Below are positions 5,951 to 16,936 of a stretch of 20,426 nucleotides of DNA, piece by piece. Position numbers and translations under genes: made by a program. Positions within the stretch are counted from its first letter, which is position 1. Every line of letters begins with the position of its first letter. The notes beneath the pieces are model-generated. The model saw only the letters and a list, made by a program, of their open reading frames with translations. It had not been told where the DNA came from and did not search any database. The DNA comes from a virus, in the IMG/VR virus record IMGVR_UViG_3300025168_000879, positions 1-20,426 of that record. The stretch is one strand, 5' to 3'.

Positions 5951-6157
5951 TTATCTACCCCTGTGGCCGCCATTTGTTGATTGTTCCTGTGCTTTTTTTT
6001 GAGCTTCTTGCTCAGCTACGTATAGTTGCAGATAACGGTTCCTTTGAAGGGAGGACATCTCTAAAACGGAAGCATGTGAAAATTTGCAGTGTCTTACTAG
6101 AGCAAACGATTCCTGGTCTAACACTTCGACCGAGCATCGAACCTCTAGCTCGTAAAG
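5951..6157 (-). CDS. -1 frame extension of the gp26-like gene (or separate small gene)
   Basis: Directly after the gp26-like stop the minus strand has a 68-codon open stretch in the -1 frame, ending at TAA 5953-5951. It reads through QESFALVRHCKFSHASVLEM and then a charged helix YVAEQEAQKKAQEQ. This pattern (aromatic or His, FS, hydrophobic, a Met, and a Glu/Lys/Gln-rich tail) resembles small proteins encoded beside gp26 homologues in marine T4-like phages. The frame has no ATG before the conserved part. A GTG at 6124 would give 57 aa but has no ribosome site at normal spacing. Upstream the frame is open back into the gp26-like gene past a slippery sequence at 6157-6163, so expression as a frameshift fusion of 355 aa is the favoured reading. 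It fills the 208-base gap before the next gene. Confidence 0.55.
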   Translation of the reverse strand, partial: LYELEVRCSVEVLDQESFALVRHCKFSHASVLEMSSLQRNRYLQLYVAEQEAQKKAQEQSTNGGHRGR

Positions 6158-7017
6158 AAAAAATTTGAGTTTATCCCTATAGACTGAGTGTTTTCAGCGT
6201 CACATTTGTCGCAAATCCAGTCCGTGTCTGTATTAAGCCCATAAGAAGGAGAGAAAATAACTTTCCTGAGAGCGGCCACATCACGTACCGTAGTACCTTC
6301 AAGGAACAGAGATATGATGGTTTTATCCGTAACCCCTTCTACTTCCAAAATATAATCAGGTAAAGATTCAATAACTTGCTTAATGGACTGAATGTTAGGT
6401 TCATCTACAACTCGTAAAGCGGCTACTCGAGCGGTCTTTTTAGAGTCAGGTAAAGTTACAGTAGTTTCAGACTCAATGTCTCCTTCTAAGTAATCAACTT
6501 CCATAGAAGATAATTGATAATCTAAGGTCGACTCATGAGAGCAAGAATCACACTCCACAGCATACTCGTACTTCGAACCATAGGATAGCTCTCTAATTTT
6601 ATATAAGCAGAATAGCTTATCTGGGACAGTTAAGTCTTTATAAGCAGGACCTTGAATACAATCTGAGAGGACCTGGTTTAAAGCATTTAAGGCTCTATCT
6701 CCTTGAGAGCCTGATTGTATTCTCTTCTCATCAGAAAACTTCAAGGCTCGAACTTTAACAGTATCAGAATCATAATCTGAGTACATTCTCCCAAGAGATG
6801 GAAGGTTAAACTCTATGTACGAGTCTACATTTTTAACGTTTTCAAGGAGAGACGCAACCGCATCTTTTATCTCTGATACTTGAGGCACGGTAGAGTTCGC
6901 AGGCGAAGGTGGAGCTGTAGGTGATACCTCTGCACTTCCTTCTTCAAATTCTTGAGCGAGGTCTACAATATTTTTACTTTCTTTATCTTTACCAAACATA
7001 ATGTTACAAATCGTCAT
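6145..7017 (-). CDS. 26: Baseplate hub assembly protein, gp26-like, with two CxxC pairs
   Basis: The 290-aa protein has a low-complexity N-terminus (about residues 20-50, Glu/Pro/Ser rich) and then the T4 baseplate protein pattern: YIEFNLPSLGRMY, ALKFSDEKRI and KLFCLYKIRELSYGSKY. Two cysteine pairs, C156xxC159 in VECDSCSHES and C269xxC272 in WICDKCDAEN, probably bind zinc together. T4 gp26 (208 aa) is needed for hub assembly; the extra length here is mostly N-terminal. The start could be ATG 7017 or the seventh codon ATG at 6999 (MFGKDKE); neither has a Shine-Dalgarno sequence. The divergent UvsW gene begins 12 bases away. A slippery heptamer near the end suggests that a longer -1 frameshift form is also made. 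Confidence 0.7.
   Translation of the reverse strand: MTICNIMFGKDKESKNIVDLAQEFEEGSAEVSPTAPPSPANSTVPQVSEIKDAVASLLENVKNVDSYIEFNLPSLGRMYSDYDSDTVKVRALKFSDEKRIQSGSQGDRALNALNQVLSDCIQGPAYKDLTVPDKLFCLYKIRELSYGSKYEYAVECDSCSHESTLDYQLSSMEVDYLEGDIESETTVTLPDSKKTARVAALRVVDEPNIQSIKQVIESLPDYILEVEGVTDKTIISLFLEGTTVRDVAALRKVIFSPSYGLNTDTDWICDKCDAENTQSIGINSNFFFTS
6157..6163 (-). promoter_or_regulatory. Candidate -1 programmed frameshift site (U UUU UUC)
   Basis: In the gp26-like frame the codons are AAT TTT TTC TTT ACG AGC TAG. The heptamer T TTT TTC fits the X XXY YYZ rule for simultaneous slippage, and AAAT before it extends the run. Slippage by -1 leads exactly into the 68-codon extension. Downstream, CGAGC (6152-6148) can pair with GCTCG (6135-6131), and TTCGA (6141-6137) with TCGAA (6129-6125). 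These are short stems that could stimulate pausing. Confidence 0.5.
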
Positions 7018-13792: not shown

Positions 13793-13801
13793 TTTTATAT
13801 A
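13793..13801 (-). promoter_or_regulatory. Late-promoter-like box TATATAAAA before the terminase gene
   Basis: On the minus strand TATATAAAA lies 23 bases from the terminase ATG, a spacing that would leave a short leader. A second box, TATAATAAATA, is closer to the ATG. Both sit in the 34-base divergent gap shared with the glycosyltransferase-like gene. Similarity to the T4 late core TATAAATA is partial. Confidence 0.35.
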
Positions 13802-13803
13802 GC

Positions 13804-14505
13804 ATGGCAAAATATGCATTTATCCCTTCTAGGACGGGCAAATCGAAAACTTTAGAAAAACTAAAGGATTTTTTCACATTGGCGGGATACACTGTAAAGG
13901 TATTAGTGGGGGAATCCTCCATCTTTAAAGCATATAGCAACGCAGTACGAGAGTGTAAATTAGCGGCTCAAGATAAGGTTGTTATGTGCCACGATGATAT
14001 TGAAATTTTAAGTAAGCCTGAAGTTTTCAATAATCTCTTAGATACACATTTTAAAACGCCAAAGGCTGGGTTTCTCGGGGTAGCGGGCACTTGTTACTTC
14101 CCAGACCACGCAGTTTGGTGGAACGGCTATGGGGCAGACCATAAGCCTATGGACCCTCAAAACCCCTTGCGCGGGTCTATCTTTCACGGGGAAACCCCAG
14201 AGAATATGAGGTTAGAACTTTATGGACCTCATGGGAATACCGTAGTTATGGATGGTGTTTTCTTAGCTACTACCGGCGCTGTGTTAAATTCCATTCAACT
14301 AACCCAGCCAAAGTCTTTTGAAGGGGGTTGGCACTTCTATGATGTCTTTTACACATACCAAGCATTTAAAAAGGGATTTGTAAATCGTACCTCTCCTATG
14401 CTTATTCGACATGAGTCCGTGGGAGAACTTGACGAGTTGTATAATAAAAATAGGTTAGCCTTTCTTAAGCTGTGTGGTTCTGACCTTCCTATTCAAGCCT
14501 TCTAA
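13804..14505 (+). CDS. Glycosyltransferase-like protein (GT-A fold)
   Basis: The 233-aa protein looks like a small GT-A glycosyltransferase of the kind grouped as glycosyltransferase-like families. An early block, SSIFKAYSNAVREC, is followed by VVMCHDDIEIL, where HDD (63-65) occupies the place of the metal-binding DxD motif. Then come FLGVAGTCYFP, VVMDGVFLATTG, a GGWHFYD acceptor-site-like motif (174-180) and IRHESVG near the end. It would transfer a sugar from a nucleotide donor, but acceptor and sugar are unknown; modified phage DNA, a virion protein or host surface glycan are all possible. It sits alone on the plus strand between virion genes. ATG 13804 is chosen because an ATG at 13768 would overlap the terminase start; no Shine-Dalgarno is present. 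Its stop shares CTAA with the facing gene. Confidence 0.65.
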   Translation: MAKYAFIPSRTGKSKTLEKLKDFFTLAGYTVKVLVGESSIFKAYSNAVRECKLAAQDKVVMCHDDIEILSKPEVFNNLLDTHFKTPKAGFLGVAGTCYFPDHAVWWNGYGADHKPMDPQNPLRGSIFHGETPENMRLELYGPHGNTVVMDGVFLATTGAVLNSIQLTQPKSFEGGWHFYDVFYTYQAFKKGFVNRTSPMLIRHESVGELDELYNKNRLAFLKLCGSDLPIQAF

Positions 14506-15005
14506 TAGTGTAAGGTGTAAATCTTTTTAAAAGCTTCTTCTGGGAACTGTCTTAGGAGCTTCTCCAACTTTTCGGTCATAGCGCCCTTTTTAGATGCTAT
14601 TACAATTGAGTTACAGTGCTTACTTATGTAATCAACAAAATCACTGGTAATTTCTTCACTATCGTATTTTATAGCATTAGGGTCTTGCTCTTCCCCTAGC
14701 ACCACAGTCTTAGTGGCTTTTTCCGCGAGTTCAGCTAATACAAACTTAGATTGCATAGTCGAGTTACTGCCAAAACTAGGATGAGGGATTACCAAAGTAT
14801 ATGGTATGTCTAACTTTTGGAGTACATGCCCAGCAACAACATTAGCACCTTTATAAGATGGAAGATATGCGTAATGTATTTCTAAGTCATTCAATACATT
14901 AGCCAGCTTACTTACAGCTTTTGTCCATGTCTTTGAGCTGTTACCGCGTCCTTTTTTAGGAAAATTTTCATCTCCAAAAAAGACCGCGACATTTCTATTA
15001 CTCAT
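14502..15005 (-). CDS. Rossmann-like protein, possibly SLOG-related, 167 aa
   Basis: The protein starts MSNRNVAVFFGDENFPKKGR, a beta strand and loop as in nucleotide-binding Rossmann folds. It continues with alternating strands and helices: HYAYLPSYKGANVVAGHVLQ, then LDIPYTLVIPHPSFGS, TKTVVLGE and SIVIASKKG. The pairing of a hydrophobic strand, a Gly-containing turn and a vLe-ipy-lviP strand recalls SLOG/YpsA-type proteins, which bind nucleotides or their derivatives, but I see no decisive motif. Its ATG overlaps the stop of the Gly/Ala-rich protein gene (ATGA), so the two are translationally coupled. The end overlaps the glycosyltransferase gene by four bases. The function is unknown. Confidence 0.45.
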   Translation of the reverse strand: MSNRNVAVFFGDENFPKKGRGNSSKTWTKAVSKLANVLNDLEIHYAYLPSYKGANVVAGHVLQKLDIPYTLVIPHPSFGSNSTMQSKFVLAELAEKATKTVVLGEEQDPNAIKYDSEEITSDFVDYISKHCNSIVIASKKGAMTEKLEKLLRQFPEEAFKKIYTLHY

Positions 15006-16936
15006 CGAGCATTGCCGCCTGTTTTGTTGCCAATAGAAAACATGTCTTGAGCGATTCTGTTAGTTCCTTTTAATACACCGCCTGTTCCTTTTGCCACGCC
15101 TCCTACTGCCTTGCCTACTCCTCTCACTGTTCCTCCAGCAAGTGCACCGGCTCCGCGTGCTGTACCGCCTACTACCTTACCTGCACCTCTCACTGCTCCG
15201 CCGGCAGCCATACCAGCTCCGACTCCTGCAACACCAGCACCTATTGCTCCGTATTTCGCTACTTTACCAGCAGCCCCAAGACCAAATTTAGTAATTCCTT
15301 TGGCTGCTCTGTAGCCTGCTCCGGCAACTTTTCCACCTGCTTTAAGTCCCGTCGCAGCTCCTCTGTATTTGTAACTCTTAGTAAAATCAGAAGCACGTCT
15401 TGCTGCTCCCGCTTCGGCGCCTCTTAGCTTCCCAGCTTGCTTGGCGGCTTTGATTTCCCCTTTGGCTTTTTCTTTTTCTGCTTGTTTTTCAGTAGTTCCG
15501 GGCTTGTGTACCTGAGGTCTTCCTTTATCACTTCCAAGAGATTTGACGGCGCCTTTAACATTACTTTTAACGTCTCGAGCTACATCTCCAAAACCAAAGT
15601 CACCTCCCGCTGGAGTCACTTTCGGGTTGCTGGCCTTATCGGTTCTTAGCTGTTTCGTAGTTCGTTGAATTTTTGAACCAACCCCTTTCCTCCCGGTTCC
15701 TACCGTGCGAGTGGTAACAAATTTGTGCCCTCGTCTCTTAGTTGTTTTGCCAGATTGTGTCGTTGCCTTTTCTGCTGTTTTCGCGCCGGCTTTTGGCGCT
15801 GTCATAGCGGCCAGACTTGGATTAATTACCGTCTTAGCAGGTTTTTCATCCGCAGTGCTGCCTGGTCTAAATGTTGCTTCCTTAAGCTTTCCACTTTCAT
15901 CCTTTTCCTGTCCTAACTTTTTAAGACCTTTGCCTGCTAAACCTGTTGTTTTCTTTATAGCACCACCGGCAACCCGACCTGCACCTGTCATAGCTCCACC
16001 GGCTATTTTACCACCTTGATTAGCTACTGCTCCGCCAGCCTTTAAGCCTGACCCTACAACCTGACCTACTGCGGCAGCAGCGTTCCCAACGATAGGAATC
16101 GCGTTCAAAGGAGCTGTGATTGCTTTAACTCCTGTACCTGCTGCTTTTAAACCTCCACCTACTGCTTTACCTGCTAGTTTGGTTGTCCCCCCAGCGGCCC
16201 TTCCACCAGTTTTTGCTAAGTCTGCGCCTGCTGCTCCTACCTTCTGGACAGCCTCTCCTCCTGTGCGAGATGCTTTTTTCATACCACTCTTCACTTGTGA
16301 GCCAAATGTTTTCTTCTTGTCGGCAGCCACATCTAATGCGACATCACCGGCGCCGAATTCATAAAGAGAGCCTTTGCTGAAAGAAGGTGTAATAGACTCC
16401 TTTGCAAACTTGTCTTTGAGACGTGCCATACGTCCTTTAATCTCTTTACCCGCTGCCAAAGCTAGAAGGGCTTTTCTAATTTTAGCCCCAGTATTTCTTT
16501 TATCTCCGTCTTTTTCGTTACTATGTTCTTTCCGGAAGTGTGCCATCATGCTTTTATCATTCTCATTACCATGCGCTTTCATGATACCTCCGCGCTTTTT
16601 AATCATAGCATCACCTACACGCTTTAGGCGTTTTTGTCCTTCGTCAACTTTCTCGCCATGGGCTTTAGCGGCAGCTTTTACCTCACCTTTCTTGGCCTTT
16701 TTAACACCTTGGGTAGCTCCTCTGATAGCAGTTTCTGCACGAGAGTCCTTACCTGAATCCCAGTCAATTGGCTTCTTTTGTTGACGCTTACGGTTAGCTG
16801 CGGCTCTGGCGTTAAATCCAGTAATCAACGTATCCAGCTTCTCACTATCTCCCTTGCTTAGCTTACCCTGTTGTTTTTTAATCATGAGCTTAGCTAAATC
16901 ACGGTTTTTCTTCTCTGTTAAGATGTTTTTTTGCAT
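15002..16936 (-). CDS. Gly/Ala/Lys-rich repeat protein, probable virion component
   Basis: The 644-aa protein is strongly basic and repetitive. Residues 1-185 are Lys/Arg-rich and helical. A short module FGAGDVALDV (194-203) is followed by a Gly/Ala block (about 222-340) with glycine repeats. A Lys/Thr linker (345-440) leads to a second copy of the module, FGFGDVARDV (447-456), another basic linker, and a second Gly/Ala block (about 525-625). There four 11-residue units beginning GG are perfect in phase. Glycine-zipper repeats of this kind can insert in or pack against membranes; the basic parts could bind DNA. It lies between a neck-like gene and the terminase. A role in DNA ejection or as an internal head protein is inference. 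I do not recognise a family. Confidence 0.6.
   Translation of the reverse strand: MQKNILTEKKNRDLAKLMIKKQQGKLSKGDSEKLDTLITGFNARAAANRKRQQKKPIDWDSGKDSRAETAIRGATQGVKKAKKGEVKAAAKAHGEKVDEGQKRLKRVGDAMIKKRGGIMKAHGNENDKSMMAHFRKEHSNEKDGDKRNTGAKIRKALLALAAGKEIKGRMARLKDKFAKESITPSFSKGSLYEFGAGDVALDVAADKKKTFGSQVKSGMKKASRTGGEAVQKVGAAGADLAKTGGRAAGGTTKLAGKAVGGGLKAAGTGVKAITAPLNAIPIVGNAAAAVGQVVGSGLKAGGAVANQGGKIAGGAMTGAGRVAGGAIKKTTGLAGKGLKKLGQEKDESGKLKEATFRPGSTADEKPAKTVINPSLAAMTAPKAGAKTAEKATTQSGKTTKRRGHKFVTTRTVGTGRKGVGSKIQRTTKQLRTDKASNPKVTPAGGDFGFGDVARDVKSNVKGAVKSLGSDKGRPQVHKPGTTEKQAEKEKAKGEIKAAKQAGKLRGAEAGAARRASDFTKSYKYRGAATGLKAGGKVAGAGYRAAKGITKFGLGAAGKVAKYGAIGAGVAGVGAGMAAGGAVRGAGKVVGGTARGAGALAGGTVRGVGKAVGGVAKGTGGVLKGTNRIAQDMFSIGNKTGGNAR
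15071..15202 (-). repeat. Four 11-residue glycine repeats in the 644-aa protein
   Basis: Residues 579-622 read GGAVRGAGKVV, GGTARGAGALA, GGTVRGVGKAV, GGVAKGTGGVL. The 33-base coding units have diverged at the DNA level but keep phase. The earlier block has similar units (GGTTKLAGKAV, GGGLKAAGTGV at 249-270). Confidence 0.75.

Follow-up and report, generated by a model that had tools for sequence, protein, structure and literature searches.

The window analysed here, meaning the whole stretch of DNA, is the 20,426-base IMG/VR virus record IMGVR_UViG_3300025168_000879, which comes from a T4-superfamily myovirus; the features described below lie on its minus strand unless stated otherwise. It encodes a terminase, a T4 gp20-type portal (Pfam E 4e-90), a UvsW-like helicase, a PD-(D/E)XK nuclease and a Toprim protein, together with a 290-residue open reading frame (ORF) at 6145-7017 that has two candidate start codons, ATG 7017 or ATG 6999. 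This ORF belongs to the family of short tail assembly chaperones (TAC-N) that includes T4 gp26: it matches PF12322 above the curated threshold (E 2.9e-15, 57 bits versus a cut-off of 24.5) and also PHROG 150, annotated as 'baseplate hub' (E 6.1e-18). A previous sequence-only reading had called its product a gp26-like hub protein; membership of the gp26 family is borne out, whereas we prefer to see in it a tail assembly chaperone rather than a structural hub component. The N-terminal ~65 residues of the protein (6820-7017, minus strand), found in the window's clade, are missing in SP-15-type and cyanophage-type relatives, and the same region is modelled with low confidence. The gene is flanked by that of the UvsW-like helicase and by a 323-residue ORF, and searches of the window with Pfam and PHROG profiles recognised no tape measure gene. 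Elsewhere in the window, a 644-residue Gly/Ala/Lys-rich ORF with degenerate ~66-nt repeats (15002-16936, minus strand) is without a Pfam match, and a glycosyltransferase-like gene (13801-14505, plus strand; PF13712, E 3.7e-11) overlaps the 5' end of the long terminase ORF on the opposite strand.

The gp26-like ORF ends with AAT TTT TTC TTT ACG AGC TAG, in which the tandem Phe codons form, in the phase xxT TTT TTC, a T TTT TTC heptamer (6157-6163) of the kind that allows a -1 shift, and in which the zero-frame TAG (6145-6147) terminates the short form. Read in the -1 frame from 6157, the sequence stays open for 68 residues up to a stop codon at 5953-5951, so that the extension, which resembles the T/gp51 domain, occupies 5951-6157 and a fusion would count 287 + 68 = 355 residues. 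The position of the heptamer, the open frame to 5951 and the two product lengths of 290 and 355 residues had all been given correctly by the sequence-only reading, which had proposed that a -1 frameshift adds a second domain to the gp26-like protein. It had also been right that no ATG precedes the conserved part of the extension: the first start codon in this frame, and the only candidate for an independent start 5' of the conserved part, is a GTG at 6122-6124, with an ATG further on at about 6058. Since 32 in-frame X XXY YYZ heptamers occur in the about 20 ORFs of the window, a slippery heptamer by itself is no evidence beyond chance. What does rise above chance, as judged by comparison of sequences, is where the heptamer lies, that the -1 frame is conserved and that the heptamer does not vary among relatives (57/57 and 151/151, see below). 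The window taken alone gives modest support for a frameshift, and the relatives decide.

A close relative, L003, whose protein is 94% identical, was compared codon by codon with the window. In the -1 extension, dN was 0.026 and dS 0.29, much as in the gp26 ORF (dN 0.029, dS 0.19). Nine of the 13 changed codons of the extension were synonymous (P 4e-4 versus random changes), compared with one or two when the other frames were read, and 10 of the 15 differences fell at codon position 3 (P 0.009). On these codon comparisons, both the gp26 ORF and the -1 extension are under purifying selection. The GTG at 6124 is replaced by GTT in L003, where the frame is kept and no start codon is found before +86.

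A scan for UvsW gene neighbours brought up 57 distinct sequences of the gene in the window's clade, with -1 domains that are, except for L003 (94%), roughly 28-49% identical to that of the window; a scan of genome contigs returned no relatives, and the diversity of the A1 alignment prevented its use as a scan query. The -1 frame was open in all 57, and the heptamer invariably lay 19 nt ahead of the stop, as T TTT TTC in 39 and as T TTT TTT in 18. A second, distant group of 157 cyanophage-like loci (151 distinct) carried an invariant T TTT TTC at -13 from the stop, with TTT TTC in 151/151 and a preceding codon that always ended in T, while Phe-Phe pairs elsewhere in the same genes were written TTT TTC in only 5 of 167 cases. 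Members of each group are mutually related, so that the counts of 57 and 151 are not independent events; however, codons a few positions away from the heptamer of the cyanophage-like genes showed many synonyms, and this variation of neighbouring codons indicates that the invariance does not simply reflect recent common descent. The same heptamer was also found in S-PM2, P-SSM2 and S-RIM2, and the same kind of -1 site in Agrobacterium phage Atu_ph07, Pseudomonas phage PA5oct and Stenotrophomonas phage RAS14. The slippery site is therefore universal in the close and distant -1 relatives that were compared and, together with the loss of the start codon in L003, this comparative evidence strongly supports the proposed addition of a second domain by a -1 frameshift; the refuting conditions named by the sequence-only reading did not overturn it.

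As for what might stimulate slippage, the sequence-only reading had pointed to complementary segments downstream of the heptamer that could interleave into a pseudoknot. The segments do exist in the window: an inverted repeat, CGAGC (6152-6148) with GCTCG (6135-6131), is present in L003 too but absent from the predicted fold, and TTCGA (6141-6137) faces TCGAA (6129-6125) as the proposed second arm. The pseudoknot did not hold up: L003 has TCCAA, which breaks the second pairing, and the 57 nt 3' of the heptamer folded no better than shuffled sequences in the window (z -0.59; L003, z -1.17). An H-type pseudoknot was thus dropped for this phage. A Shine-Dalgarno-like AGGG (6175-6178), 11 nt 5' of the heptamer and also present in L003, may be a stimulator. 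Such a motif, 8-9 nt upstream of the heptamer, characterises the cyanophage-like set (143/151, versus 10% of control windows), in which the RNA downstream of the heptamer also folds better than shuffles (mean z -2.1); since it is found near the slip site in only 2 of the 57 clade relatives, we do not claim it for the window. RNAalifold returned no structure on mixed alignments, and it was only after restriction to sequences without length differences that a covarying stem emerged. In 28 distinct clade relatives, a stem of at least 5 pairs starts 7 nt after the heptamer and holds the stop codon inside; compensatory changes turn its outer pair from G-C to A-U and the next pair from C-G to U-A, and where the stop is TAA instead of TAG, a change of C to U in the opposite arm restores the pair (G-C to A-U). 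This covarying stem-loop, which encloses the gp26 stop codon, was seen in L229-L294 at 7-34 nt after the heptamer. The window could form only about four pairs of it, as read from its sequence. A simple stem-loop 7 nt after the heptamer is the better candidate stimulator in relatives outside the window's sub-clade.

The homology of the two parts was followed to T4 itself. A profile of the cyanophage gp51 domain detected both the -1 domain of the window (HMM E 1.5e-6) and the C-terminus of T4 gp51 (E 2.3e-6), both E-values referring to a small set, and hhalign aligned the window and cyanophage domains with a probability of 87. Against PHROG 634, the cyanophage domain scored 1e-28, while the direct match of the window domain was weak (E 0.09). 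These profile comparisons place the -1 domain, cyanophage gp51 and the C-terminal part of T4 gp51 (PHROG 634) in one homologous family. The PHROG 150 profile covers T4 gp26 at positions 10-236 and T4 gp51 at positions 3-281 of 282, so that gp51 consists, end to end, of the short-form profile plus the extra domain while gp26 corresponds to the short part only. T4 genes 26 and 51 (NC_000866 115802-117228; L009) are paralogues, gp51 being an in-frame fusion of a gp26-like part and the extra domain. T4 and the window hence share the same families (PF12322/PHROG 150 and PHROG 634), with gp26 as short form and gp51 as fused long form, but T4 uses two genes without a frameshift where the window has one gene and a slip site. 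Particles of T4 lack gp51, although their assembly requires it (PMC3004832). The short form had no match in a sequence search of the PDB; its AlphaFold model (pLDDT 75.8) gave no significant match in a PDB fold search, YqbN (3klu) appearing only at E 3 with a probability of 0.20, so that the search did not bear out the fold known from the chaperones HK97 gp13 and XkdN/YqbN.

These sequence comparisons indicate that the window gene very probably gives rise to two chaperones, a short and a long one, by a -1 ribosomal slip on its T run, and we hold with high confidence the explanation as a whole, namely a T4-superfamily chaperone pair made of a short form and a -1 frameshifted long form. Most ribosomes would stop at the TAG at 6145, giving the 290-residue TAC-N form, the counterpart of lambda gpG and T4 gp26. 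A minority, as we infer, would slip back on T TTT TTC, the two Phe-tRNAs that sit on TTT TTC re-pairing on TTT TTT, and would read on to 5951 to make the 355-residue TAC-NC form, the counterpart of lambda gpGT and T4 gp51. If lambda is a guide, the part common to both forms may bind the tape measure protein while the extra helical domain would recruit tail tube subunits, and both forms would then leave.

The parallel with lambda G/GT (Xu et al. 2004, reviewed in PMC5009743), already drawn by the sequence-only reading, has gained in substance: since cyanophage gp51 and the C-terminal part of T4 gp51 are homologues of the -1 domain, correspondence of the window pair to the short and long chaperones of lambda is strongly supported at the sequence level. 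As in lambda, a small -1 ORF overlaps a short ORF, the slip site lies just before the short stop and the long form gains an extra domain. Several relatives repeat the lambda gene order (tube, G, T, tape measure): in SP-15, LIS04 and immuto, the tail tube gene lies on one side of the pair and the tape measure gene on the other; the window pair, unlike that of lambda, adjoins no recognised tape measure gene. No sequence similarity was detected between lambda G and the window short form, and the slip sites also differ, T TTT TTC in the window versus G GGA AAG in lambda. The cyanophage (Kyanoviridae) gp26 and gp51 share with the window the -1 heptamer T TTT TTC and a homologous -1 domain, but their short form is only ~20% identical, the overlap differs in length, with the heptamer 13 nt before the stop, and they have a Shine-Dalgarno-like stimulator and a stronger stem-loop. 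A chaperone with a GTTTTT slip motif is known in Vandenendeviridae/Andersonviridae (phage Adele, PMC12846349); it too is made by slipping -1 on a run of T's where the short chaperone gene ends, yet it belongs to different virus families, and the likeness is one of slip motif and gene position.

Three other explanations were weighed against ribosomal slippage. The small domain might be a gene of its own on which ribosomes re-initiate once past the gp26 stop, from GTG 6124 or an ATG near 6058 in the window and from an ATG at +2 in many cyanophages. RefSeq does annotate cyanophage gp51 as a separate gene with its own start, 114 of the 157 cyanophage-like loci have the ATG at +2, and L008, L026 and L030 appear to carry the domain as a gene with its own ATG. 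Yet the GTG is lost in L003, 27 of the 57 clade relatives have no ATG, GTG or TTG in the -1 frame between its opening and +70, the 78-codon -1 ORF of PA5oct contains no start codon at all, the gp51 start annotated in S-RIM2 (+50) cuts into the domain, and independent initiation would leave the invariance of the heptamer without a need. We therefore consider a separate gene improbable. The annotated cyanophage 'gp51' genes start at arbitrary ATGs in RefSeq (NC_020859 6448-6636, NC_006883 7214-7390 and NC_006820 151187-151363), and their real product is probably a gp26-gp51 -1 frameshift fusion.

The frame might also change before translation, if RNA polymerase slipped on the run of T's. A T6 homopolymer is indeed present, but six T's are short for efficient polymerase slippage, the codon phase is fixed at xxT TTT TTY with C as the seventh base in 39/57 clade members, and relatives carry stimulators typical of ribosomal slippage, all of which makes a transcriptional origin of the shift very unlikely. 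A run of six T's is error-prone as well, and the gene could in principle lie in one frame that a sequencing or assembly error had split, or be a degraded pseudogene. This reading has next to no probability left and is refuted by independent relatives: the phase is the same in L003 and in the 57 + 151 distinct sequences, which come from many assemblies, the recurrence of the arrangement in independent contigs excludes a base-count error, which the sequence-only reading had named as a possible refutation, and both parts are under purifying selection.

A -1 ribosomal slip is the reading that we retain for the window; many relatives place the gp51-like domain differently. In SP-15 (L004, 3680-3920), LIS04 (L005) and GXN1 (L006), it lies in the +1 frame relative to gp26, and an NCC CGA TTY motif common to the three at the end of gp26 makes these sites sequence-based candidates for +1 programmed frameshifting. 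The domain also lies in the +1 frame in Mel-JY01 (L010), immuto (L011), L015-L025, L027-L029, L031 and L032; YTT TGG CCT is invariant just before the gp26 stop in Mel-JY01, immuto and over a dozen marine IMG/VR contigs, and several members lack a start codon before +73, so that this group is a second candidate +1 class, again from its sequence motif. It seems slightly more probable than the contrary that one chaperone family has switched repeatedly in how it produces its long form: by a -1 slip (window clade, cyanophages, Atu_ph07, PA5oct, RAS14), by a +1 slip, as a gene with its own start (L008, L026, L030) or by duplication and in-frame fusion (T4 26/51). If true, the +1 branch and the covarying stimulatory stem that contains the stop codon would be the unreported parts.

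A 2016 review described G-T frameshifting as widespread 'except T4' (PMC5009743). The chaperones of T4-like phages were identified by Vladimirov, Gautam and Davidson (2022, Virology 566:9-15), and, going by what PMC10885494 and PMC12846349 relate of that work, the assignment of gp26/gp51 as chaperones and poly-T slippage in T4-like phages have apparently already been published. Contrary to the earlier review, the present locus adds one more firm case, with many relatives, of T4-related phages that use lambda-type frameshifting for their chaperones, in a family long thought to lack a decoding trick known in tailed phages. It also explains the truncated look of cyanophage 'gp51', earlier noted to have only about 20% of the length of T4 gp51 (PMC3037559): the missing front part is gp26. 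In annotation, gp26 and gp51 of many marine phages should accordingly become one frameshifted product.
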